Shown here one piece after another: positions 161-18,837 of a stretch of 20,071 nt of DNA. The position numbers and the translations under genes were made by a program. The notes under the pieces are model-generated. The model made no database searches and had not been told where the DNA came from. It worked only from the letters and a program-made list of their open reading frames with translations. Numbering within the stretch: position 1 is the first letter of the stretch; every line of letters begins with the position of its first letter. The DNA is taken from the IMG/VR virus record IMGVR_UViG_3300031772_008745, positions 1 through 20,071 of that record. One strand, given 5' to 3'. Origin of the DNA: a virus.

Positions 161-700
161 ATGACAGCAAGCAAAGACTTCAGCGTGAGGTTCCCAGAGA
201 TCAGGGAAAAGGTTGCCACCAAGCACGCCGAGTTCCTCGGCAAGTACAAGCAGGTCTTCCTCAAGAAGGTCGCTGAGCGGGAGATGTCGCGCGACCTGAT
301 ATACGCGAAGATCCTTCTGGTAGCCAAGGTGTTCGTCGACTCTGGGGTTGTTGATTCGTCGAAGGAGGTTGACATTGGGGCACCCAACGGGAACTATGCG
401 AGGTCGGTGGCGCTTGTCTCCAAGCTTTCGCCGTTCTGCATCTACATCTTGAATGACGGGAAGAACGTCACCATCACTGACTCGGTTGCCATTCCAGCCC
501 AGAACAACATCGAGAACCGCCTCGTACTCGTATCCAGCAGCCGGATGGCACATGCGGAGTGCAGGGACGTTCTTGAACCAGGATTCAGCTGGGAAGATCT
601 CTGCATGACGTTGCTGGACTGCATACATATGGTGATCTACAACCGCTCCGAGGTCATCAAGGAGCATTTTCTCAACAGCGTCGAGGGCTCCAATGGGTAG
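161..700 (+). CDS. Unknown 179-aa protein upstream of dnaE
   Basis: The frame allows a start at 143, but ATG 161 is preferred because GGAG at 150-153 lies 7 nt upstream of it. The protein starts MTASKDFSVRF, is mixed alpha/beta in character, and has no signal peptide or membrane segment. The N-terminal 60 residues are Lys/Glu-rich and probably helical. The middle has short hydrophobic strands (FCIYIL, RLVLVSSS). I do not recognise the family. Its TAG overlaps the start of the polymerase gene by 8 bases (ATGGGTAG, 693-700), so the two are very likely translationally coupled. That hints at a replication-linked role, by context only. Confidence 0.8.
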   Translation: MTASKDFSVRFPEIREKVATKHAEFLGKYKQVFLKKVAEREMSRDLIYAKILLVAKVFVDSGVVDSSKEVDIGAPNGNYARSVALVSKLSPFCIYILNDGKNVTITDSVAIPAQNNIENRLVLVSSSRMAHAECRDVLEPGFSWEDLCMTLLDCIHMVIYNRSEVIKEHFLNSVEGSNG

Positions 701-3545
701 CACTGACCAACCCGCCGTGACCCCGCAGCCGTTTGTCCCGCTGCACTGTCACAGCTACTATTCGCTGCTTGACGGACTGGCTTCACCCGAAGCGCTTGTG
801 GCCAGGGCGGCGGAGCTCGGATGCAAGGCCATGGCGTTGACCGATCACGGGACATGTGGAGGACTCTACGATTTCCAACTGGCGGCCGCAAAGGCTGGCA
901 TCAAGCCCATCCTCGGAACAGAGGCTTATATTGTCGATAACATGACCGCCAGGAACAAGGACGATAGGCGTCACCATATCACCCTTTGGGCAAAGGACGC
1001 CGAAGGGTACAGGAACCTCATAGGTCTGAGCACACTCAGTTACGTCAAGGGCCACTATGTCAAGCCGCGCATCGACTTCGACACACTGAATGCGATGCGT
1101 AAGGGCCTTATGGCTGGAACTGCGTGCATGAAGGGCTTGGTCGCCGACGCCGTCCTCGCAGGAGACACTGGCAAGGCGGAGGCTATGGCCCGGCGCCTGA
1201 AGGACATATTCGGCGACGACCTCTATTGCGAAATAATGATCCACCAGTATGCCCCTGGGGCTAGGGAGAAGCAGGAAAGCTTCATCAGGGCCATGAAGGG
1301 CGTCCTTGCCATCGCCGACGCCAACGGAATCAAGTCCGTCTTCACGGACGACACCCACTACTGCCGGAAGTCGGACGCTTTCTATCATGACGTCCTGATC
1401 AGCATCCAGACCAAGGACACCATAAAGAACCCGAAGAGGTTCAGCTTCTCGTCAGCCGACTTCTACATGAAGTCTTACGAACAGATCATATCGAGGTGCT
1501 CTTCCAGAAGCGACCTCGCCGCCAACACGCTTGAGGTCGCCGAAAAGGTTTCGTCTGGCAACCTCATAGTCCCGTCCAAGGAGGTGCTTCCCAACTTCCC
1601 CCTCCAGGAGGGCGTCGAGTCCGAACAGGCCTTCCTCAAGTCTCTCATACGGGACGGCATGATGAGGCGCGGGGTCTTCAACATTCAGGAGTACCGCGAC
1701 AGGATAGTCACGGAACTCGACGTCATAACGAAATGCGGCTTCACCCGCTACTTCCTGATTTTGTGGGATCTGGTGGACTACGCAAAGAGGCGCGGCATCA
1801 GGATGGGCCCCGGCCGCGGCTCTGGCGCCGCATCGCTGTGCCTTTACTGCCTTGACGTGACCATGTTGGATCCGATCAAACACGACCTGATGTTCGAAAG
1901 GTTCCTCAACCCCGACAGAGTCAGCCCTCCAGACGTCGACTTGGACTTCGACGACTCGAAGCGCGACGAGATGTTCAGGTACGTCTCCCAAAAATACGGC
2001 CAGCAGTCCGTGACGAGGATCGGGACATACGGTTCCCTGAAGGCCAAGGACGCTGTCAAGAGGGTCGGAAAAGCTCTGGACATCGGCGGCGATTGGGAAC
2101 TTGTCGGCGACGGGGAGAAGAAGGGGCCGTGGAAGTCCGGCAAGAACACGCTGGAACTTGTGAACATCATGTCGAAGGCCATATCTGATGAGCCTGATGT
2201 GAAACTGCACGAGGCTATGTCGGAAAACGAGGTTAAACAGTATGTCGAGAAATACCCCCAGGTGTTCGAGATTGCACAGAAGATAGAGGGATCCCTGTCG
2301 AACGCCGGAGTCCATCCCGCTGGCGTCATTATATGCAACGGAAGCGTCTCCGACACAATCCCCCTGAGAGTTACAAATGAGGTGCTCTGCACACAGTTCG
2401 ATATGAAGGAGGTCGAGGCTCTCGGCTTGCTCAAGTTCGACTTCCTCGGTCTCAAAACAATCCGTGTCATTGACAAGTGCGTTGCCCTGATCAAGGAGAG
2501 GACGGGGACGGAGATAAACGTGAACACTTTGGAGCCTGATGACGCCGCCACGTTCAGGATAATGAACGACGGAAAGGTGGACGGCATCTTCCAATTTGAG
2601 GGCGGCTTCGGAAAGGGGGGAATCAGCAAGTTGCTGAGGGACATCCATGTTGACGCCTTTGGCGACATGGTGGTCGCCTGCTCGTTGTTCCGGCCTGGCA
2701 CGAGGAGAGCGAAGGTCGATCAGGATTATGTGAGCTACAAGCACAAGAGGAAGACTGTTGAATACGTCCATCCCATGATGAAGGAACTGCTCGGATCCAC
2801 ATTCGGCATGATGGTGTATCAGGAACAGGTTCTGCTTGTCGCGATGAAGATGGCTCTTTTCACCCCCGTCGAGGCCGACTATATGCGGAAGGGTATGGGC
2901 AAAAAGGACGAGGTTCTCCTCAACAAGCTCAAGGACAAGTTCGTCAACGGATGCGTCAAGAACGGGATCACCCAGGCTATCGGGGAAAAGGTCTTTCAGC
3001 TCTGTCTCAACTTCAGCAAGTACGGTTTCAACAAGGCGCACTCGGCGGCCTACGCCTATCTGGCATACCAGACAGCATGGCTGAAGACTCACTATCCTGT
3101 GGAGTTCATGACATCCCTGCTTTCCTCGGTGATCGGCGACGAGGACAAGGTTCTGCAGTATGAGAGGGCGTGCAGGAGCCTTGGCATAGAGGTCTTGCCG
3201 CACAACATCAACAAGAGCGGAGTCTCCTACTCCATTGACAACGGATGCATTAGGAAGCCCCTGACGTCCATCAAGGGCATCGGTGAGAAGGCGGTGGAGG
3301 CGATAGCCGTCCAACAGCCGTTCTCCAGCCTTAACGAATTTGTGACGAAACTCAGCGGCCATGCCGTGAACAGGTCTGTATTTGCAGCCCTCGTAGAATC
3401 TGGAGCGATGGAGTCCTTTGGCATGACGAAACAGCAGCTTCTGGCCAATTATGACCAGGCGAAGGACTTTGCCAAGAAGAAGATCAAGCAGGATCAGAAG
3501 CTTGCCACGTTCGGATCCGCTGACCTGTTTGATTGTGAAGTTTGA
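693..3545 (+). CDS. dnaE: DNA polymerase III alpha subunit (DnaE type), C-terminally short
   Basis: Phage replicative DNA polymerase of the bacterial C family, 950 aa. An N-terminal PHP domain carries HCH (18-20), TDHG (50-53) and a DTH motif ending at H222; its metal ligands look intact, so it may be an active nuclease. The palm has PGRGSG (373-378), the catalytic pair D416/D418 in PDVDLDF, and the third aspartate D583 in LLKFDFLG, matching E. coli D401, D403 and D555. The fingers motif YGFNKAHS is at 777-784, followed by a helix-hairpin-helix (SIKGIGEKA). The protein ends just after SADLF (942-946), which resembles the internal clamp-binding QADMF of E. coli. The OB-fold and tau-binding domains of the 1160-aa host protein are therefore absent. 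Motifs are contiguous, with no intein. Confidence 0.97.
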   Translation: MGSTDQPAVTPQPFVPLHCHSYYSLLDGLASPEALVARAAELGCKAMALTDHGTCGGLYDFQLAAAKAGIKPILGTEAYIVDNMTARNKDDRRHHITLWAKDAEGYRNLIGLSTLSYVKGHYVKPRIDFDTLNAMRKGLMAGTACMKGLVADAVLAGDTGKAEAMARRLKDIFGDDLYCEIMIHQYAPGAREKQESFIRAMKGVLAIADANGIKSVFTDDTHYCRKSDAFYHDVLISIQTKDTIKNPKRFSFSSADFYMKSYEQIISRCSSRSDLAANTLEVAEKVSSGNLIVPSKEVLPNFPLQEGVESEQAFLKSLIRDGMMRRGVFNIQEYRDRIVTELDVITKCGFTRYFLILWDLVDYAKRRGIRMGPGRGSGAASLCLYCLDVTMLDPIKHDLMFERFLNPDRVSPPDVDLDFDDSKRDEMFRYVSQKYGQQSVTRIGTYGSLKAKDAVKRVGKALDIGGDWELVGDGEKKGPWKSGKNTLELVNIMSKAISDEPDVKLHEAMSENEVKQYVEKYPQVFEIAQKIEGSLSNAGVHPAGVIICNGSVSDTIPLRVTNEVLCTQFDMKEVEALGLLKFDFLGLKTIRVIDKCVALIKERTGTEINVNTLEPDDAATFRIMNDGKVDGIFQFEGGFGKGGISKLLRDIHVDAFGDMVVACSLFRPGTRRAKVDQDYVSYKHKRKTVEYVHPMMKELLGSTFGMMVYQEQVLLVAMKMALFTPVEADYMRKGMGKKDEVLLNKLKDKFVNGCVKNGITQAIGEKVFQLCLNFSKYGFNKAHSAAYAYLAYQTAWLKTHYPVEFMTSLLSSVIGDEDKVLQYERACRSLGIEVLPHNINKSGVSYSIDNGCIRKPLTSIKGIGEKAVEAIAVQQPFSSLNEFVTKLSGHAVNRSVFAALVESGAMESFGMTKQQLLANYDQAKDFAKKKIKQDQKLATFGSADLFDCEV

Positions 3546-3575: not shown

Positions 3576-3623
3576 GGCGATGTTAAGGACAAGGTGTCGA
3601 AACGGGTAATGAAAGGAGATAGG

Positions 3624-4551: not shown

Positions 4552-5163
4552 ATGAGCGATGTCCCAAAGATAGAAAATGTTTCAACGCCAGACGACTATG
4601 CCCGCATAGCCGCCGCCATGTCGGAACGCATTGCAGCCCTTCCTACCCTAGATTACGACAAGCTGTATCTGGAACTGTCGCAGCTCAATGTGAAGGTCTC
4701 TGATGATCCCAGCCTTCAGGTTCTGAGCAAGGAACTACAAAGGATACAGGGGGCCAAGGATCGCGTGGCTGAGATTGTGAAGGACTCTGTGAAGAACTTT
4801 CTTGTCAGGAAACGCATAGGTGAGGTTCTCCAGAGGGGCTGGATACGCTTTTCCGAGGCGGGATCCACCGACAAACGCGAGGGCGAGGCTATGCTCAAGC
4901 TTTCACAGTTCACGGAGACTGCGTCGGAGGCGGAGTCCTTCTACCGCGCCGCCCTCCAGATACTCAAGAACCTCGACAGCCAGCATGAGATTGTGTCACG
5001 GCGCATCAGCTGTTACAACATTGCCATCAAGCTCCGCGACCTCAAGGGATATGGTTCCGACGTTGACGCCATCGTCAGTACAGTGTCCCCAGCCCAACCG
5101 GGCTTCGCGGATAGCAATGCGTACGATGAGAGCCTCTCCAACTGGGACAAGTTGGAGGATTGA
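4552..5163 (+). CDS. Unknown 203-aa helical protein
   Basis: ATG 4552 lies 5 bp after the previous stop, with a distant GGAG (4537-4540, 11 nt away). The protein starts MSDVPKIENVST and is strongly helical and charged, with probable long helices around residues 15-130 (for example LQVLSKELQRIQGAKDRVAE). It ends in an acidic tail, SLSNWDKLED. It has no Cys clusters, nucleotide-binding loops or membrane segments. The position just before the SSB and recA genes would suit a replication accessory or recombination-mediator role, but no sequence motif supports that. The gene is followed by the structured non-coding stretch. Confidence 0.8.
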   Translation: MSDVPKIENVSTPDDYARIAAAMSERIAALPTLDYDKLYLELSQLNVKVSDDPSLQVLSKELQRIQGAKDRVAEIVKDSVKNFLVRKRIGEVLQRGWIRFSEAGSTDKREGEAMLKLSQFTETASEAESFYRAALQILKNLDSQHEIVSRRISCYNIAIKLRDLKGYGSDVDAIVSTVSPAQPGFADSNAYDESLSNWDKLED

Positions 5164-5177
5164 TTCACTTCACAAGA

Positions 5178-5208
5178 CGCATGAACTTTTTTGAAAAAAG
5201 TTGATGCG
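5178..5208. repeat. 31-bp near-perfect palindrome
   Basis: Two 15-nt arms around a central G (5193) match with a single mismatch. The core is AACTTTTTT / AAAAAAGTT, flanked by CGCAT / ATGCG. It sits just after the stop of the 203-aa gene and before the TATAAT at 5227. It could be a protein-binding site, or a weak transcript-ending hairpin, though the G+C-rich stem plus U-run of a normal terminator is missing. Confidence 0.6.
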
Positions 5209-5226
5209 CTTTCCCCGTCTATCCAC

Positions 5227-5232
5227 TATAAT
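5227..5232 (+). promoter_or_regulatory. Possible TATAAT -10 box upstream of the SSB leader
   Basis: An exact TATAAT in the only gap larger than 150 bp before the SSB gene. Unlike the other copies it lacks the preceding TG and the TTC. A TTGATG (5201-5206) lies 20 nt upstream, too far for a good -35 box. If used, transcription would begin near 5239, at the base of the hairpins that follow. Confidence 0.4.
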
Positions 5233-5234
5233 AG

Positions 5235-5376
5235 GCACCAGTTTACACTAGTGTGTTTTTAGTGTAAAGCTAGTGCAGAGTTGGCAGAGCCGTTACTCTG
5301 TAATGCGAGCAGGGCGCTCGCGTCGGAGCGGCCGCCAGTAAACCTCAACGCACCAATGGTGCAAGGAGACGGGTAG
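5235..5376 (+). promoter_or_regulatory. Structured 5' leader of the SSB gene
   Basis: Non-coding, with several exact inverted repeats. (1) TTTACACTA (5242-5250) pairs with TAGTGTAAA (5260-5268), overlapping the 10-bp palindrome ACACTAGTGT (5246-5255). (2) CAGAGT (5276-5281) pairs with ACTCTG (5295-5300), enclosing GGC-AGA-GCC. (3) GCGAGC (5305-5310) pairs with GCTCGC (5316-5321). (4) GCACC (5350-5354) pairs with GGTGC (5358-5362), just before the Shine-Dalgarno AAGGAG (5364-5369). Long-range pairs compete with (1) and (4): GTTTAC (5241-5246) with GTAAAC (5338-5343), and GCACCA (5235-5240) with TGGTGC (5357-5362). The layout suggests translational or attenuation control. T4 gp32, another phage SSB, controls its own mRNA through a structured leader. 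Confidence 0.55.
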
Positions 5377-6318
5377 ATGGATATCGAGTCAGATAGTATC
5401 GTTAACTCCGGTTACACGGACGTCAATATTGACGCCTCGACCGGGGGAGGCTTCAAGGGGAAGGACGGGGATAAAATCTCGCTCTTCATGAAGCTGGAGA
5501 TCAGAACGGAGCCCTACAGGGTTCGACTGGTTTCGCCGGTGCTCAACTTCAGGAAACATTGGGACGCCTTCAAATCCCTCAAACAGTACCCGATCAGTCC
5601 GGCGTACAAGAAGGAGGAGAAGGATCTCGACGTTGCATGGAGCACGGGCAGATGGTGCCCGCGGAAGAGGCACGTGGCCATAGTCATCGACAGGGAAAAC
5701 CCGAAGATGCTCCGCATCTTGGAACAAGGACCGCAGACATTCCAGGCATTCGGAAACTTCGGCACGATGACGAAGAAGAATCCGGCGGGCCCGTCGGGCC
5801 CCGATTGGCTGATTTCGGCTCAGAAGGTCGACGGCCAGGTGAAGTATTCCGTCTTGGCAGATCCCTCCGGCCCGAAGCCGTTTACGGCCGAGGAAATCGA
5901 GCTGATCCACACATCGAAGGTGAGCCTGAAGTGGGTGGAGGAAAAGTTCTATTCCAAGGCGTCCCCTGAATACATCAAGGAACTTTGGGAGCAGCTCCCG
6001 GAGGACAAGAAGTATTCCAAGAAGGGTGACGATGACGAAAAGGACGACGGTAAGGATGGCGGCCATGCGACAACGCAAGCCCAGCCTCCTGCTCCGGTTG
6101 CGACTTCCGCCGCCGCTCCAGCCGCACAGCCTGCGGCTCCCGTCAAGGATGACGGCTTCTTGAAGGACAAACCTGCCGCACCAGCCGCCACGGTGGCGGC
6201 AGTGGCTCCGGCCGCACCAGCCCCTGCCCCAGCGGCAGCTCCGGCTCCGGCGGCCGCTCCGGCTCCGAAAGCCGAACAGAAACCGGTTGAGGAATCGGAA
6301 TCAGTTTCCCTGTTCTAA
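5377..6318 (+). CDS. ssb: Putative single-stranded DNA-binding protein
   Basis: 313 aa, ATG 5377 after AAGGAG (5364-5369). Residues 1-210 form a globular part rich in Lys, Trp and Phe (for example PYRVRLVSPVLNFRKHWDAF), with basic and aromatic residues suited to ssDNA binding. A charged Lys/Asp stretch (216-229) and a Pro/Ala-rich flexible linker (231-299) follow. The protein ends in an acidic tip, VEESESVSLF. A globular domain, disordered Pro/Ala linker and acidic tip ending in Phe is the usual SSB layout, although the tip is not the canonical DDDIPF. The position directly before recA and a primase, and the structured leader, agree. I do not see a clear OB-fold signature, so the call rests on architecture and context. 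Confidence 0.6.
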   Translation: MDIESDSIVNSGYTDVNIDASTGGGFKGKDGDKISLFMKLEIRTEPYRVRLVSPVLNFRKHWDAFKSLKQYPISPAYKKEEKDLDVAWSTGRWCPRKRHVAIVIDRENPKMLRILEQGPQTFQAFGNFGTMTKKNPAGPSGPDWLISAQKVDGQVKYSVLADPSGPKPFTAEEIELIHTSKVSLKWVEEKFYSKASPEYIKELWEQLPEDKKYSKKGDDDEKDDGKDGGHATTQAQPPAPVATSAAAPAAQPAAPVKDDGFLKDKPAAPAATVAAVAPAAPAPAPAAAPAPAAAPAPKAEQKPVEESESVSLF

Positions 6319-6332
6319 GGGAGGAACACAAC

Positions 6333-6370
6333 GGTGCCGTGGTCTGATCTTATGGGTCGGCCACGGCACC
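6333..6370 (+). terminator. Stem-loop between the SSB gene and recA
   Basis: GGTGCCGTGG (6333-6342) and CCACGGCACC (6361-6370) form a perfect 10-bp G+C-rich stem with an 18-nt loop, 15 bp after the SSB stop. The sequence after it (TTCCCGATTC) has no U-run, so it is not a standard intrinsic terminator. It could partially end transcription, or protect the 3' end of a processed SSB mRNA. Confidence 0.45.
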
Positions 6371-6401
6371 TTCCCGATTCAATTTCATCAGGAGAACTAC
6401 A

Positions 6402-7520
6402 ATGTCAAAGAAGGGCAGCGACCTAAGCGCGGTGCTTGCGAACATCGAGAAGTCCCTCGGCAACAAGGGTGAGCCGAAGCTTCACATTTTCAGCGAGATG
6501 AAACAGGGGCCAGTGGAGGTCATCTCATGGGGCATCAAGGAGCTTGACGAGGCCAGCGGCCTCGGCGGCATCCCCCGCGGAAGGCTGATCGAGCTGTTCG
6601 GCCCCGAGTCGAGCGGCAAGAGCTACATCACCCTGAAGGCCATGGCGTCATTCCAGAAGGCTGGGCTCAAGGCCGGCCTGATCGACTTGGAAAAAACGCT
6701 AACCGAGAAGTGGGCCAAACTCCATGGCGTTGACACGACCAGCCTGGTCTACGGCGACGCATTCTCTGGGGAGGAAGCCCTGAACTACATCAAAACGATG
6801 TGCGTCAGCAAGGCTTTGGACCTGATCGTCTTGGATTCGACGGCGGCTCTTATCCCACAGTCGGAGATAGACGGACAGATAGGCGAGGGCCGAATGGCGG
6901 CTCTTGCGGCCCTGATGTCAGGAGCCATTAAGCAGATCCTGCAGGCCGCAGGCGATTCTGGAACGACAGTCATATTCATCAACCAGATCCGCATGAAGCC
7001 AGGGGTCGTGTACGGGAATCCGGAGGACACGCCTGGTGGAAAGGCACTCAAGTTCTACGCCCATCAGCGTCTACGAGTCCACAGAATCGGCCTCATCAAG
7101 AGGAAGGGCGAGGGTGAAAAGGAGGACATCATCGGGATCAAGTCTCGGGTGAAGTTCGAGAAGAACAAGCTTGCGCCGCCGTTCGTGGAGGCAGAGTATG
7201 AGATGTACTTCTCGGAGGACGGGAACGATCCGATCGTCAACCTTGTTCAGATCGCGTCCAATAAGCCCTACCTGATCCTCAAGCGGAAAAAGGTTGGCGA
7301 GGACATGCGGTATTTCTGGGAGGACGAGGACACGGAGTGCGTCAACATCCCAGACGTCGCCGAGTGGCTTGACGCGAACGAGAAGGTCGGTGCCCTCCTC
7401 GACGCCGTTGAAGCCAAAACGACAGACCTCAAGCTCAAGCTACCCGAGGAGGTCACAGCCATCAGGACGAAGCTGCAAACCCCGCCCGCCGAGACCCAGG
7501 TCGTTCAGGACAATGGCTGA
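6402..7520 (+). CDS. recA: RecA/UvsX-family recombinase
   Basis: 372 aa. An AGGAG lies just before the ATG. The protein forms filaments on ssDNA and carries out homologous pairing and strand exchange in phage recombination and replication restart. Walker A is GPESSGKS (67-74). The catalytic glutamate is E97 in LIDLEKTL (E96 in E. coli RecA). Walker B is LIVLD (141-145). The DNA-binding loop region has EIDGQIGEGRM, and INQIRMKPG leads into loop 2 with NPEDTPGGKALKFYA (206-220). It is much closer to bacterial RecA than to T4 UvsX. It has a longer basic mid-section (LIKRKGEGEKED) and an extended C-terminus. Its TGA overlaps the primase ATG by one base (TGATG). Confidence 0.96.
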   Translation: MSKKGSDLSAVLANIEKSLGNKGEPKLHIFSEMKQGPVEVISWGIKELDEASGLGGIPRGRLIELFGPESSGKSYITLKAMASFQKAGLKAGLIDLEKTLTEKWAKLHGVDTTSLVYGDAFSGEEALNYIKTMCVSKALDLIVLDSTAALIPQSEIDGQIGEGRMAALAALMSGAIKQILQAAGDSGTTVIFINQIRMKPGVVYGNPEDTPGGKALKFYAHQRLRVHRIGLIKRKGEGEKEDIIGIKSRVKFEKNKLAPPFVEAEYEMYFSEDGNDPIVNLVQIASNKPYLILKRKKVGEDMRYFWEDEDTECVNIPDVAEWLDANEKVGALLDAVEAKTTDLKLKLPEEVTAIRTKLQTPPAETQVVQDNG

Positions 7521-8287
7521 TGAATTGGGATTGTTTCGCCAGGGAATGCCACGAAGCATTGTTCCGCCAGGATGACCAGAGCCAAAGGGCTCTGGCCTAC
7601 CTGACGGCAACTCGGGGGCTCAGTGTCGAAACGATCAAGAGGCATCTCATAGGCTTCTGCCCCTCGTCGCAGGAGCTGCCGGACGATCCGTCAAACGAAA
7701 AGTGGAACGTCAACGAGAAGCTGAGGAAGAGGGTTGTGGTTCCAGTGTTTTCGGAGTTCGGCGTGGTTGTCGGAGCGGCTGGAAGGTCTCCCGACCCGTC
7801 AGAATCCGGCTGGTGGAACTCGAAGTTCAACAAGGCGAAGTTCATCTTCATGTTCGACAAGGCGAGGAGGCACATCTTTGAGCGCAACAAGGCTTACGTT
7901 TTCGAGGGTTATGTCGATTCCCTGTTCTCCGAACAGGCCGGCCTGCCGAACTCCACCGGTGCCATGGGGACCAGCGTCGCATATAGGAAGATCGGCCTCT
8001 ATGCCAGATATTGCGACAGGGTCTGCATCTGCTTCGACAGCGACGTCAACGAGGCTGGGCGCATGGGTCAGTTGAAAACGGTGGCCGATTTGGGGATGTT
8101 CGGCTTCGGAGAGGTGTCGAAAATCGAGGTGCCAGGTAAGAAGGAGGATCCGGATGAATTCATCCGCCGTGAGGGCCTGGACAAGTTCCTGGCTCTCGAA
8201 AAAGTGCTAACCGACAAGGAAATCGGCATGGCTCTTAAGGAATATGAGAGGCTCAGAGAGCTTACAAGATCCGCAAAGGCAGCATAA
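7520..8287 (+). CDS. dnaG: DnaG-type primase catalytic core (Toprim), no zinc finger
   Basis: 255 aa, coupled to recA through TGATG. It matches the RNA-polymerase domain of DnaG. An N-terminal subdomain has YLTATRGLSVETIKRHLIGF (28-47). A basic loop, WWNSKFNKAKFIF, matches the DnaG stretch where the consensus is NSPET.LF.K. The Toprim fold has E129 in VFEGYVDS and the D-x-D pair D173/D175 in CFDSDVNEAG, followed by EDPDEFI. Both the zinc-binding N-terminal domain and the C-terminal helicase-binding domain of bacterial DnaG (about 580 aa) are absent. Template recognition and helicase contact must then come from partners. It would make RNA primers for the DnaE-type polymerase. Confidence 0.9.
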   Translation: MNWDCFARECHEALFRQDDQSQRALAYLTATRGLSVETIKRHLIGFCPSSQELPDDPSNEKWNVNEKLRKRVVVPVFSEFGVVVGAAGRSPDPSESGWWNSKFNKAKFIFMFDKARRHIFERNKAYVFEGYVDSLFSEQAGLPNSTGAMGTSVAYRKIGLYARYCDRVCICFDSDVNEAGRMGQLKTVADLGMFGFGEVSKIEVPGKKEDPDEFIRREGLDKFLALEKVLTDKEIGMALKEYERLRELTRSAKAA

Positions 8288-9384: not shown

Positions 9385-9771
9385 ATGATGCAAGACAGCG
9401 CTGGTGACGTAAGGAAACTCGACGCCCAGGACGAGGACATTGGGAGCAACAAGACATTCAGCAACATCCTCAGGGTCAAGGCTGACCCTCCTGGGATTTC
9501 AGAGGATGAGAAATCCAAAAAGCTCAAGTGCCTGGCGGGAGCCATAGCACACGGCATCAGGCAGTACGGCGAGGTGCAGGCCAGATGCATCGGCGACGCC
9601 GCGACAGCCAAGGGTGCGAAGGCCGTGGCTGTCGCATCCGGGATGGTGGCTGTGACCGGAATTGACCTATACTGCCGTCCGACGTTCATGACCGTCGAAA
9701 TGCAGGACAAGGACATGACCGGCATTTGCTTCGTCATCAAGCACCAATCCGTTCCCAAACCTCAGTCATGA
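9385..9771 (+). CDS. spoVS: SpoVS-family (stage V sporulation protein S-like) protein
   Basis: 128 aa. AAGGAG (9375-9380) precedes two adjacent ATG codons; the second (9388) has the better spacing. Residues 28-121 match SpoVS: ILRVKAD, then LAGAIAHGIRQYGEVQARCIG (49-70 region), then GAKAVAVASGMVAVTGIDL (77-95), then a final strand pair. In Bacillus SpoVS the matching parts are LKVSAKS, EIQAIGAGALNQAVKAVAIA and PSGVDL. The family has an Alba-like fold, affects sporulation and cell division in Bacillus and is presumed to bind nucleic acid. Here an acidic 25-residue N-terminal extension and a short insertion (ISEDEKSKK) are added. It has its own promoter and lies in a DNA-repair region, so a nucleoid or host-regulating role is plausible but unproven. 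Confidence 0.88.
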   Translation: MMQDSAGDVRKLDAQDEDIGSNKTFSNILRVKADPPGISEDEKSKKLKCLAGAIAHGIRQYGEVQARCIGDAATAKGAKAVAVASGMVAVTGIDLYCRPTFMTVEMQDKDMTGICFVIKHQSVPKPQS

Positions 9772-9787
9772 CGGCCGACTTCACCAG

Positions 9788-10459
9788 ATGATCTCCGAAC
9801 AGGCGGCTTATCTGTTGTCCCCCGCCGTCGCAGTAGCACATGACGGCGAAGTTGTTGACTTCATAAGGCGCTGTTGCGGCTTCGACCGTGTGGAATCCAA
9901 CCGCTGGCAGACGAGGGTTGACAGGAAGGGCCATCGGCCCGATGTGGCTCTCGACCTGTGGCAGGCCATGGACATCAAGGACTTTTCGTCGGCTAGGTTT
10001 TTCCTTGCACCCCTCTCCGAACTTGTGATATTGTTCGAGGTGGACTTTTTCAGCCGTCACGAGATGGCTCCCCGTCTGGCGGGGGCTTTGCCGAACGGCT
10101 GGGAACGGTGGGGCGTTGTCAGGGGCAACTGTATGCTGGTGTCGGACAAGAAGGAGTTCATGAAGTCCATCTTGACCGCCGATGCGTTCATAGCCATACC
10201 GCCGTACCGATTTGAACAGTTGGCGGACGACATTGAATGTGCTGGACAGGAAAACAACGAGAACGCTGCTTTTGCAGCCTGCAGGGTGCTGACGAGGCCG
10301 AACTTGGGATATTCCTTCCGCATGTATGTCGGTCATAAAGACGGAAAAACGACGGAGTCTATAGTTGAACATTCGATATTGACGGAGGCAAACGATGCGA
10401 GCCTTGATTTGTGCAGATCCGCACTTGAACAACACAACTTACGGGAAGATCGATGCTGA
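9788..10459 (+). CDS. Unknown 223-aa protein overlapping the SbcD-SbcC gene
   Basis: The only available start is ATG 9788: the frame is closed by a TGA at 9716-9718 and no start codon lies between. No Shine-Dalgarno is visible, so initiation may depend on coupling to the SpoVS stop 17 nt upstream. The protein is soluble, mixed alpha/beta and rich in aromatic and charged residues (for example FFLAPLSELVILFEVDFFS). No motif is recognised. It overlaps the following gene by 65 nt (10395-10459), which is long for this window, where overlaps are otherwise 1-8 nt. The downstream gene's Shine-Dalgarno lies inside it. Confidence 0.72.
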   Translation: MISEQAAYLLSPAVAVAHDGEVVDFIRRCCGFDRVESNRWQTRVDRKGHRPDVALDLWQAMDIKDFSSARFFLAPLSELVILFEVDFFSRHEMAPRLAGALPNGWERWGVVRGNCMLVSDKKEFMKSILTADAFIAIPPYRFEQLADDIECAGQENNENAAFAACRVLTRPNLGYSFRMYVGHKDGKTTESIVEHSILTEANDASLDLCRSALEQHNLREDRC

Positions 10460-13400
10460 AGGACTCTCTTTCAGGACAAGGGATTTCTGTAACGCCTTTG
10501 AGAAGGCCGTTGACAGGGCCGTCGGCGGGGCCGACAAAATTGACACGATAGTCGCCCTCGGCGACATCTTCGAAAATCCTCATCCGCCGAGCAACGTCAG
10601 GTCGTTTCTGCAAGCCCAGGTAAGGAAACTTTCCGACGCCCGCATAGAGACGATCCTCCTTGTCGGCAACCACGACGCGTGCCAGCACCATCAGGCCCTC
10701 CAGGTTGTAACCGGAACGGAATTCGAGCACGTCCAAGTCCATTACGCCCCAAAGATAGTCGAAAACGCCTCCACGATGATGCTCATCTTCCCGCATTCCG
10801 AGGCCATCGAGAAGCAGGAAACCACATTCCGTGAGTCGTTCCTCCGGTTCGCCAAGGATTCAGTGGATGAGGTTGCCAGAGCCAAAAAAGAAGGGAAGGA
10901 TGTCATCCTTCTTGGCCATTTCCCCGTCTTCGGAGCCAAAAGGAATGACAGGTCGATGAACTCGGACGCCGGATCCATTACTGTGGCCGACATATCGTCA
11001 ATCGGCGCCGACTTCGCCTTCTTGGGCGACTACCATGCCTCCCAGATATTCGAGGGTAAGACCAACGTCATGTATGTCGGGAGTTTGGAGCGCACTTCTT
11101 TCGGCGACACCATGTCGAAAAAGGGCTGGATAATATATGACAGCTCCGCCAAGGCAAACGGGAAGATGTGGAAGACGGTCTTTGAGGAATCCCTAGGCCG
11201 TCTGTTCGTGGACATCGATATCACACCGGAAAGGATGGATGCCGTTCTGGCGGAGGCGTCTGGCAAGGTGAACGAGGCCGTTGTCAGGGTTACTTTCTGC
11301 GGAACGACGGAGGAATACAAGGCTTTTTGCTCCAAGAAGGCAGAAGTCAAAAACTCCCTTTCGCAGGCGAAGCACGTTGTCTTCGAGGCCAAGATATTCG
11401 ACCCCGAAGCCGGAGCCGTGGCCGAGGCCATACGCAAGGAGATCCAATCTCGCGGCGAAGTCGGGGTCTCAGACATCCTCGACATCGTCAAGACAGCCAT
11501 CGAGGCTGAGATCAAAGAACCCGACTCGGTCGAAGCCTCTATGAAGGTCGTCGGCGACATCATGTCGGCCGTCAAGGCGCTGCAGTCGGTTACGACCGAA
11601 GGCAAGCCAGGCAGGATACGCCTCCACGGCGTCAAAATGCACAATTTCCAGCGGTACGGGGAGGAGGCCAACGTTGTGGAGTTCGACCGAGGAGCGGGGG
11701 AGTTCCTTGGCGTTCTCGACGCCAGCGGCAAGCTGAGGGCGAAAAACAAGGCTGAAGTCTTCAAGGCCGCCAAGGCGTTCATGTCGGGCGTTGACCCAGA
11801 GAAAAAGCACCTGATCTCCATCTTGGGCCAGATCGAGGGCGACGACAGGGAGTCTAATGGCGCCGGCAAGTCCTCGATCCTCGAGGCGATATCATACGCC
11901 TTCTTTGAAAGGCTCGCAAGGGAGTTCGCCCACAAGGACAGCTACAAGGGCATCTCGACGACATCGGCCGTCACCTCGATCGGCGGCAAACTGAAAAACG
12001 ACTGCTATGTTGATGTCGTGTTCAGCTCGGAGGGGGAACTGTGGCTGGTCAGGAGGGGGAGGAAGGTCGCCAAGGGCGGCACCCACACCTCGGTTTTCAG
12101 CCTCGTGTGCATCAGCTCCGAGGAAGGCCAAGAGGGGTCGGCATCAGGGCACCGCAAGAAGGGGTCTGTGGAGGCTCTGGCTCAACTCGTCCAGATGGAC
12201 TACGAGACCTTCGTCAACAGCGTCATGTTCGGGCAGAACGAGGCTGACCGCTTTATCACGGGGACGGACAAGGTCAAGAAGGACATACTCGCTAAGGTCC
12301 TGAGGTTGACCGTCCTCGACGACTGCCTGACGGAAATACGCGAGCGGAAAAAGAACGCCGCAAGGGACGCCGAGTCGGTGGAGATACAGATATCCTCTCT
12401 CAGCTCACAGAGCTCGCCCGGCGAGAAGAAGTCCCTTGAGGACAAGGTTTCGGCCTGCGATGTGGCGATGGAGACGGCCGCCAAGGAGATCTCTGCCAAA
12501 CAGGCGGAGCTTGACGAGCTGCGGGGCAAGTCGCCTCAGGACGAATGCGACAGGATGTCGGCAGAGCTGATGGCCAAACAGGCCGAAATGGGCATGATGT
12601 CCAAGGACGGCGAGACGAAGCTCCAAGTCTTACGCGACGCCCACTCGGACGCCGTCAAGAGGGCGACTAAGGCCCGCCAGGAGGCCGAGGTGGCCGCACA
12701 GCAGAAGACCAGCTCGGGATGCGACCTTGCGGGCATCCAAGAGGCCATGGCGGCCTTCAACGAAGCCGATGTCGCGAAGAGCCTGTCCCTTGTGGAAAAG
12801 GCCAAGGAAGCCAAACCCAAGAGGCAGGCAGAATACCGAGACATGCAGGCGAAGACAACCGACATGTCCAAGCAGAAGGGGAGGCTGGAGGGCAGCATAG
12901 AATCACTGGATAAGGACATCGGAAAGTTCAACATCCGCCTCTCCGCATGCCCCGCCGGAGGCGTGACGCGGTGCACGGAATGTGAAAGCGAAGTCCCCAG
13001 GAGCCATTTCGAGGCGAAGATAGCCGAAAAGGAGGCCGAGAAGAAGGCAGTCTCATCCCTCCTCTCCACCCTTGTGGCAGAGATGTCATCCCTGCACACT
13101 CAGATGGCAGACGTCAAGCGGAAGCTGGACAACATTGACGAATATGTCGGCAAGGAGGCCTCGCTTACGGCGTCTTTGAAGGACCAACAGAGGCGGGTGG
13201 AAAGGGTTGCGGAATTGGGCCGAAAGATCTCCGAACTTGACGCGAGGATAGTGTCCTCATCTTCGGACTCGGCAACCGAATTGGAAGCCGCCTCGAAGGC
13301 CAACATCCAGTGCGACAAGCTGACGGGAGAGATCAGGCGCGTCATTGACCCGCTTAAGGACAAATGCCGACAACTTGAGCTGGTTATCAATGAGGCTCGA

Positions 13401-14099
13401 TCAAAACTGAGCACGCACGCCGAGAAGGTTCGTAGCCTTGAGGCAGTTGTGGCCGGATTCAGGTCGAAGAGGGATTCCCTCATTTCCGACATTTCCGGAG
13501 CGAAAGCCAGGATCGATATGATTGTGAAGAACACCGAGAAGATAGCGGCGTTGTCGTCGGATCTGGAGGTGAAGAGGGCGGCCTTCGAACGACTGAAGGT
13601 CATCGAAAAGGTCTTCGGGCTTGACGGCATCAGGACCCACATGATGCGGAAATATGTCCCTCTCCTCAATTCCTACATAGCCGACTTCATCGAAGTGATG
13701 TCGAAGGGGAGGATTGTGGTCACAGTCTCAATGGACGAAACCACCTCCGAGCTCTGTATGGATATAGCCGGGGCATCAGCCCCTGTTGCGGAACTTGTGT
13801 CCAAGGGCGAATTCATGAGGATCAAGCTGGCGGTAGATCTCGCCCTCGGCCTCCTGTCACTCGCCAAGAACGACAACGCTCCAGACTTCGTGTGCCTTGA
13901 CGAGGTGTTCGCCCCCGTTGACCAAGCTGGTAAGGAGCTGATATTCGACGTCATCGAAAGGCTTCAGAAGCAGTTCAGGATGGTCATAGTCATCAGCCAT
14001 GACCAGACAGTCAAGGAGAGGATCAAAGACACCATAGTGGTCAACAAGGTCAACGACGTTAGCAGGATAGAGAAACAGACCTTCCGTTCCGATGTATAA
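10395..14099 (+). CDS. sbcD-sbcC: Fused SbcD-SbcC (Mre11-Rad50) nuclease-ATPase
   Basis: 1234 aa. GGAGG (10384-10388) is 6 nt before the ATG. The Mre11/SbcD phosphodiesterase half (about 1-390) has D8-P-H10, GD at 56-57, GNHD at 91-94, H175 in LLGHFP and H214 in GDYH. In GDYH the first His of the usual GHxH is Asp. The Rad50/SbcC half starts near 405 (RIRLHGVKMHNF), with Walker A NGAGKS (488-493) and Q-loop Q614. Coiled-coil arms of roughly 210-240 residues flank the zinc hook C860-T-E-C863. The signature is reduced to SKGE (1136-1139, usually LSGGE), with Walker B VCLDE (D1169, E1170) and H1202. An insertion of about 50 residues precedes the P-loop. The complex resects DNA ends and opens hairpins. 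In T4 (gp47/gp46) and E. coli these are two separate proteins. Confidence 0.95.
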   Translation: MRALICADPHLNNTTYGKIDAEGLSFRTRDFCNAFEKAVDRAVGGADKIDTIVALGDIFENPHPPSNVRSFLQAQVRKLSDARIETILLVGNHDACQHHQALQVVTGTEFEHVQVHYAPKIVENASTMMLIFPHSEAIEKQETTFRESFLRFAKDSVDEVARAKKEGKDVILLGHFPVFGAKRNDRSMNSDAGSITVADISSIGADFAFLGDYHASQIFEGKTNVMYVGSLERTSFGDTMSKKGWIIYDSSAKANGKMWKTVFEESLGRLFVDIDITPERMDAVLAEASGKVNEAVVRVTFCGTTEEYKAFCSKKAEVKNSLSQAKHVVFEAKIFDPEAGAVAEAIRKEIQSRGEVGVSDILDIVKTAIEAEIKEPDSVEASMKVVGDIMSAVKALQSVTTEGKPGRIRLHGVKMHNFQRYGEEANVVEFDRGAGEFLGVLDASGKLRAKNKAEVFKAAKAFMSGVDPEKKHLISILGQIEGDDRESNGAGKSSILEAISYAFFERLAREFAHKDSYKGISTTSAVTSIGGKLKNDCYVDVVFSSEGELWLVRRGRKVAKGGTHTSVFSLVCISSEEGQEGSASGHRKKGSVEALAQLVQMDYETFVNSVMFGQNEADRFITGTDKVKKDILAKVLRLTVLDDCLTEIRERKKNAARDAESVEIQISSLSSQSSPGEKKSLEDKVSACDVAMETAAKEISAKQAELDELRGKSPQDECDRMSAELMAKQAEMGMMSKDGETKLQVLRDAHSDAVKRATKARQEAEVAAQQKTSSGCDLAGIQEAMAAFNEADVAKSLSLVEKAKEAKPKRQAEYRDMQAKTTDMSKQKGRLEGSIESLDKDIGKFNIRLSACPAGGVTRCTECESEVPRSHFEAKIAEKEAEKKAVSSLLSTLVAEMSSLHTQMADVKRKLDNIDEYVGKEASLTASLKDQQRRVERVAELGRKISELDARIVSSSSDSATELEAASKANIQCDKLTGEIRRVIDPLKDKCRQLELVINEARSKLSTHAEKVRSLEAVVAGFRSKRDSLISDISGAKARIDMIVKNTEKIAALSSDLEVKRAAFERLKVIEKVFGLDGIRTHMMRKYVPLLNSYIADFIEVMSKGRIVVTVSMDETTSELCMDIAGASAPVAELVSKGEFMRIKLAVDLALGLLSLAKNDNAPDFVCLDEVFAPVDQAGKELIFDVIERLQKQFRMVIVISHDQTVKERIKDTIVVNKVNDVSRIEKQTFRSDV

Positions 14100-17538: not shown

Positions 17539-18837
17539 ATGAACATCAAGATTCGGCTTCTTCGAAATGGCAAGAGGTGGGATAATTTTGATGGCGAAAG
17601 ATGGACAAAAGAAGAGGATAAAATACTGCAGGATATGTATTCCACCTGCGACAAGAAAGAGATTATGTCTCTTTTGCCACACAGGACGTGGGGATCAATT
17701 TCGACCAGAAGCATCAAGTCGTTCGGACTTTCCCGTAATCTGTTTGATTGGAGGCCAGAAGAAGATAAAATCCTTCGCGATAAGTATGCAAGGAGTCGCC
17801 TTCAAGACTTGATGATTCTTTTGCCGACAAGAACTTGGAGTAGCATTCAGAGTAGAGCCAGCAAAGTGTTGAGCCTGTCACGCAACGTCAGGGCTTGGAG
17901 CAATGAAGAAATCGGCGCACTTTCTCAGCATTACCCTAACGGTGGTGTGAAATCCACTCGGGATCTTTTACCGTTGAGGTCTGATTCCGTCATTAGATGC
18001 AAGGCCAGCGGGCTCGGGATTCGCCAGATACGTGGAGAGAATTGTAATCTAGCTTCGTTGTTTTTGCCGCATCCGATTTCCTATTATTGGTTGGGGTTCT
18101 TGTTAGCTGACGGGCACTTTGATCCAAGCCGTGGCATAGGCAGTCTTTGTTTGGCAAAAAAAGATGAGAATTCCATTCGGGAGTTTGCATCATTTATATC
18201 GTGTCAAAACATTAAGCCAAGTCAACACGATTCTGTTTCGGTTTATTTTCATTCTCATAAAGACATCCCAAGATTGTGTCAAAAGTTCTCAATTCAAAGC
18301 AACAAAACCCGTTATCCGCCTGACTTATCTGCCATAGACAATGACAAAAACGCGATGTTGTCGATGTTGATTGGTCTTATCGATGGGGATGGTTGTATAT
18401 ACAATGCGGATAATATCCGGCGATCCTATATGGGTCTGATGTGCCACGCAAGTTGGATTGGAATTTATCAAAGGTTTGTGAAATTTCTCCTTAGGGAATT
18501 TAAGGTCAACGGGGTCAGCCCCAAATGCTCTGTCGGTTTGGTCAACAAGAGAATCGGGTCTTCTATAAGACGATATGTTAGATTCAACATTTTTGACCAT
18601 TATTTGCTAAAAGAAATGAAGCGAATGGCAATTCGGATGGATCTGCCGATGATGAGGAGAAAGTGGGACAAGGTTGATTTGGAATATGTTACTGAAAGAG
18701 AATCAACTCCTCTGGTTATGGAGAATGTCAGAAGGTTGGTCGGACAAGGTTTGAAATATAAAGAAATTATGAAGAAGACCGGATATACAGAATCTCGGGT
18801 CAAGTGGAGTATTAAAAAGTGTCTTGCGCGGCCGTAA
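17539..18837 (+). CDS. Modular LAGLIDADG homing endonuclease
   Basis: 432 aa. Two LAGLIDADG motifs mark a single-chain enzyme: [10 protein letters not shown] with D191, and LIGLIDGDG (277-285) with D284. Each aspartate would bind a catalytic metal. Before them are three tandem Myb/SANT-like repeats of about 45 residues (about 22-65, 71-115 and 120-160). Each begins W-x-x-E-E-D/I and contains LLP.R (LLPHRTW, LLPTRTW, LLPLRSD), probably DNA-reading modules. A C-terminal helix-turn-helix-like segment lies at about 393-425 ([20 protein letters not shown]). A+T-rich and isolated from its neighbours, it is a free-standing selfish gene. There is no good Shine-Dalgarno. No intron or intein is visible around it. 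Confidence 0.9.

Follow-up and report, generated by a model that had tools for sequence, protein, structure and literature searches.

A structured leader upstream of a putative SSB gene in a viral replication gene cluster

The leader of a putative SSB gene (positions 5235-5376) in a viral replication gene cluster contains local hairpins in excess of chance expectation. The explanation that we prefer, held with somewhat less than even confidence, is that the SSB gene is transcribed separately and that this leader is its lineage-specific structured 5′ UTR, tuning mRNA stability or translation.

The replication gene cluster

The window, i.e. the whole stretch of DNA that was analysed, is a virus record of 20,071 bases in which a cluster of replication genes is found. 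This cluster includes the following:

693-3545: DnaE-type DNA polymerase gene
4552-5163: upstream ORF, 203 aa
5377-6318, plus strand: putative SSB gene, 313 aa, with a conserved core, a Pro/Ala-rich linker and an acidic tail with the end EESESVSLF
6402-7520: RecA/UvsX-like recombinase gene
7520-8287: primase-like gene
10395-14099: fused SbcD-SbcC-like gene

The SbcD-like and SbcC-like regions at 10395-14099 are joined in a single 1234-aa ORF, and a pattern search of IMG/VR for such a fused ORF returned no match. A phage-encoded SpoVS-domain protein (Pfam E 2e-18) is present at 9385-9771. A LAGLIDADG-type ORF with a Myb-like N-terminus (17539-18837) is located in a low-GC island (42-45% vs ~55%) and is probably a free-standing homing endonuclease.

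Of all intergenic gaps in the window, the one from the upstream ORF to the SSB gene (5164-5376, 213 nt) is both the longest and the most structured (z -5.7). Among six gaps longer than 40 nt, structure was found only in the two that flank the SSB gene, the gene starts at 3621, 15862 and 18866 being approximate in this comparison. The second of these, the SSB-RecA gap (6319-6401; MFE -35.2 kcal/mol, z -4.6), contains the following element, which may stabilise a 3′ end, terminate transcription or belong to the RecA leader:

6319-6375, plus strand: stable hairpin, GGUGCCGUGG...CCACGGCACC, without a U-tract

Assignment of the SSB gene

The product of 5377-6318 had been called an SSB from the sequence alone, and this identity is borne out by its profile family, its synteny with RecA and its likeness to gp377 of phage G. 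No match to Pfam or PHROGs was obtained at standard thresholds. A permissive PHROGs search returned the SSB family phrog_1607 (E 0.11), and phage G gp377, which is annotated as an SSB, aligned with E 0.03 across 87 residues. A two-sequence profile detected ORFs in other phages that directly precede RecA (best E 3.5e-9), and its iteration yielded 13 such sequences, the majority of which have RecA as the next gene. This family has relatives among proteins of the SPO1 group, one of which is annotated as a putative SSB. An AlphaFold model built from 12 sequences reached a pLDDT of 61, and the single-sequence model was uninformative. The best PDB match of the SSB model was the ssDNA-binding protein PrgE, with a non-significant E of 0.03, and the viral matches found by Foldseek include named SSBs. 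A sequence relation to T4 gp32 was not detected. Because these individually weak lines agree with one another and with the gene order, SSB is the best assignment for the product.

Structure of the leader

The minimum-energy fold of the leader is composed of three consecutive stem-loops (SL1, SL2 and SL3), the last of which reaches the Shine-Dalgarno sequence:

5235-5276, plus strand: SL1, -15.6 kcal/mol, z -3.2
5281-5338, plus strand: SL2, long imperfect G+C-rich hairpin with the core GCGAGC/GCTCGC at 5305-5321
5344-5368, plus strand: SL3, GCACC-AAU-GGUGC (5350-5362) plus a CTC/GAG extension, hairpin P ~0.99
5364-5368, plus strand: Shine-Dalgarno AGGAG, 8 nt ahead of the ATG at 5377

The coordinates of every element named in the sequence-only reading are correct, including those of a last hairpin ending 1 nt before the Shine-Dalgarno. 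The core of SL1 is formed by TTTACACTA (5242-5250) and TAGTGTAAA (5260-5268), whereas its outer GCAC/GTGC pairing needs an RNA that starts at or before 5235. The SL2 region (5278-5341) folds with -30.5 kcal/mol (z -2.95). In SL3, CTC 5344-5346 pairs with the Shine-Dalgarno GAG 5366-5368; the probability that G5366-G5368 are unpaired is 0.15-0.20 in the leader alone and 0.27-0.56 once the first 84 coding nucleotides are included.

Folding energies, which are nearest-neighbour predictions at 37 °C, were compared with those of shuffled controls as the sequence-only reading had proposed, and the leader folds better than its shuffles. Its MFE is -58.2 kcal/mol, with z -3.84 in one run (1 of 200 shuffles as good) and -4.07 in a second (0 of 200). 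At least four exact local hairpins had been claimed; five were counted (stem of at least 5 bp, loop of 3-9) against 0.84 expected, a count reached in 0.2% of 2000 dinucleotide shuffles. Strong folding is nevertheless not unique to the leader, since it ranks 14th of 332 plus-strand windows in a coarse scan with 30 shuffles each (top 4-5%) and some coding windows fold equally well.

Several other identities were tried and rejected. Rfam 15 gave no match to a known RNA family or riboswitch at the gathering score, the best sub-threshold hit being a chance lncRNA. The resemblance of AGTTGGCAGAGC to a tRNA D arm suggested a tRNA remnant, and both ARAGORN and cmscan were negative. No hairpin followed by a U run, as in an intrinsic terminator or attenuator, occurs in 5160-5376. 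A leader peptide could be encoded only in the frame that ends with TAG 5374-5376 and is open to 5263, in which the sole starts are TTG 5281 and a late ATG 5356 without a Shine-Dalgarno; the openness of this frame is unremarkable at this G+C content. The one loop pairing found, a possible pseudoknot between the SL1 loop (5251-5257) and 5347-5353, is matched by 30% of shuffles.

Predicted transcription of the SSB gene

Three elements are located upstream of the leader:

5178-5208: near-perfect palindrome CGCATGAACTTTTTTGAAAAAAGTTGATGCG, 31 bp, with a T6-GA-A6 core, 93% over 15-nt arms
5215-5224, plus strand: CCGUCUAUCC, 10-bp complement of 5371-5380 with two G-U pairs, start codon included
5227-5232, plus strand: TATAAT, consensus -10 box, predicted transcription start ~5239-5240

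TATAAT occurs eight times in the window against 1.92 expected (none of 100 shuffles reaches eight), seven times on the plus strand. The motif TGTATAAT is present in five copies against 0.44 expected, all on the plus strand and at or near gene junctions (3568, 9330, 14093, 17389 and 17525), and likely represents a phage-specific promoter class. The TATAAT copy of the SSB gene is without the TG, and no good -35 box is found at the usual spacing from it, TTGATG 5201-5206 being 20 nt away. The promoter is presumably active, with a start near 5239-5240. Such a start would remove the GCACC strand, so that the outermost pairing is lost, as had been anticipated for a start near 5239. In an RNA that starts at 5240 the z of the leader weakens to -2.8, which counts against the structured-UTR explanation. 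The palindrome separates the upstream ORF from the predicted SSB promoter, in a region (5170-5234) that folds with z -4.2, and is possibly an UP-element-like A/T tract, an operator or the hairpin end of the upstream unit.

Leaders of syntenic SSB genes

Searches of IMG/VR with the SSB, RecA, polymerase, SbcCD and upstream-ORF sequences, of GTDB genomes with the SSB and polymerase, and of phages and plasmids with the SSB detected no relative close enough for the leader to be aligned and its covariation assessed; entries from this genome or from very close ones may be hidden from these searches. Scans for the DNA patterns of SL1 and SL2 hit nothing but unrelated loci selected by the pattern itself. 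For the 13 SSB genes with this synteny, folding of the 142 nt before the start is unremarkable (z ~0 to -2.5), and only the 80-nt gap of phages L006/L007 is clearly structured (z -4.9). The SSB leader of phage G is A-rich and unstructured (z -1.3). Because most syntenic SSB leaders are unstructured, a strongly structured SSB leader is a lineage trait and not a family trait.

The SSB leaders of three phage lineages (L002, L003 and L004; L006 and L007; L008) have in common a TTGACA promoter-like element, the hairpin CTACCANNNNGGTAGCAAC and an A/C-rich open ribosome-binding site. They are located at 1746 in L002, 2854 in L003/L004, 2925 in L006/L007 and 485 in L008. The stem of the hairpin is invariant and its loop variable, and the arrangement of hairpin and open ribosome-binding site recalls the layout of the T4 gene 32 operator.

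Possible function of the leader

According to the preferred explanation, control of the SSB gene would reside in the gap 5164-5376. The promoter with the -10 box at 5227-5232 would produce a separate SSB transcript with a 5′ UTR of ~137 nt containing the three stem-loops. The 5′ and middle stem-loops would protect the mRNA and set its lifetime, whereas SL3, which partly pairs with the Shine-Dalgarno, would damp or tune ribosome entry. No dedicated ligand would be needed for these effects on stability and translation.

Autogenous control, proposed by analogy, is the strongest competitor, although it must be called unlikely. Excess SSB would bind the leader and block ribosome entry, with SL1-SL3 serving as the recognition element. 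The gene encodes a putative SSB with its own structured leader ending at the Shine-Dalgarno, and there is precedent in the gp32 proteins of T4 and RB69, which repress translation of their own mRNA (PMC535899, PMC3014915). In the T4 operator, a 5′ pseudoknot of ~28 nt precedes an A+U-rich stretch with UUAAA that is unstructured and covers the ribosome-binding site (PMC535899). The sequence-only reading had drawn this comparison, and it holds as an analogy only: 5343-5376 contains no UUAAA or UAAA repeats and the same stretch is occupied by the SL3 hairpin, so the leader is not a T4-type operator. The proposal is further weakened by the lack of a supported pseudoknot, by the unstructured state of most syntenic SSB leaders and by the patchiness of the trait even among T4 relatives, the T4-like phage RB49 being without the gene 32 pseudoknot (PMC3014915). 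A slightly smaller chance is given to the leader being an SSB-responsive translational operator unlike the T4 gp32 pseudoknot, the SSB itself being only a remote relative of those already known. Should the leader respond to SSB, it would represent SSB autoregulation independent of that pseudoknot, which, according to a 2010 review, is perhaps the sole viral case of such a structure in autoregulation (PMC3014915). Otherwise its interest is moderate and local, as one more phage 5′ UTR with structure.

Silencing of read-through transcripts, as in T4 gene e, is less probable again. RNA from the upstream genes would hide the SSB AUG, while the promoter-made RNA would be translated. In RNA that starts at or before 5164, the partner of CCGUCUAUCC (5215-5224) is GGGUAGAUGG (5371-5380), which leaves the AUG unpaired with a probability of only ~0.01-0.03. 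The 5′ strand is located immediately before the -10 box, so promoter-made RNA does not contain it, a geometry also found in T4 e, soc, 49 and I-TevI (PMC3014915). However, equally good pairing is seen in 7.6% of upstream shuffles and in 9% of other real segments, and the AUG is captured to the same degree in 12% of shuffles; the helix is therefore not significant alone. A replication protein that is needed early is also no obvious target for the silencing of early transcripts.

The hairpins may have no RNA function at all and represent sites that act in the DNA or a G+C-rich palindromic patch that arose by chance. Other plus-strand coding windows fold equally well, and the leader is lineage-specific with no conservation known. 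This account is rather improbable, as the excess of exact local stems over expectation and the fact that the structure stops exactly at the Shine-Dalgarno both speak against it.

A conformational switch is the weakest explanation. The sequence-only reading had proposed mutually exclusive long-range pairings of GCACCA 5235-5240 (also at 5350-5355) with TGGTGC 5357-5362 and of GTTTAC 5241-5246 with GTAAAC 5338-5343, and this proposal failed: two long-range exact 6-mer complements are observed against 0.77 expected (two or more in 20% of shuffles), their ensemble probabilities are at most 0.0007 and 0.005, respectively, and forcing them costs +4.0 and +8.8 kcal/mol. The energy model predicts a different bistability, which involves the following element:

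5274-5303, plus strand: alternative hairpin, core CAGAGT 5276-5281 / ACTCTG 5295-5300, excludes SL2, favoured (P ~0.7-0.8) in RNA with a start at 5237-5244

The two forms are nearly isoenergetic (~1 kcal/mol apart), and the fold of 5269-5338 flips with the 5′ end of the RNA. When the RNA starts at or before 5235, GCAC 5235-5238 captures GTGC 5273-5276 and SL2 then forms (core P 0.99-1.0); with starts at 5236-5245 the SL2 core falls to 0.2-0.45 and the alternative hairpin mostly wins (P 0.56-0.82). A switch by this route, set by the exact 5′ end or by folding order, is very doubtful: the difference of ~1 kcal/mol falls inside the error of the energy model, comparative support is lacking, and the exchange has no evident output because SL3 and the Shine-Dalgarno are the same in both forms.

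Comparison with known systems

The leader resembles those of T4 and RB69 gene 32 in being a phage SSB leader with structure 5′ of the ribosome-binding site. It differs from that of T4 gene 32 in having three G+C-rich hairpins over ~140 nt, one of them abutting the Shine-Dalgarno.

In T4 e, soc, 49 and I-TevI, start-hiding structures form only in RNA begun upstream of the local promoter (PMC3014915), and the predicted helix over the SSB start codon would likewise be confined to such RNA. Unlike the local hairpins of the T4 e group, the helix of the window closes a multibranch domain of ~150 nt, and the gene encodes a replication protein.

The window shares with L002/L003/L004, L006/L007 and L008 an SSB gene directly upstream of RecA, a hairpin upstream of the Shine-Dalgarno and a promoter-like element before the leader (TTGACA in those phages, TATAAT in the window). 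Their leaders have no sequence similarity to that of the window; unlike it, they place a short hairpin, CUACC-(5 nt)-GGUAG, ahead of the A/C-rich open ribosome-binding site.

The preferred explanation has precedents: stabilising stem-loops are 5′-terminal in ompA mRNA and are located in the 5′ UTR of Acinetobacter recA mRNA (PMC7509114). As in the E. coli ompA stabiliser, a strong Shine-Dalgarno is preceded by a long leader with a stem-loop that lies at its predicted 5′ end or close to it; unlike in ompA, the last stem-loop of the SSB leader touches the Shine-Dalgarno.
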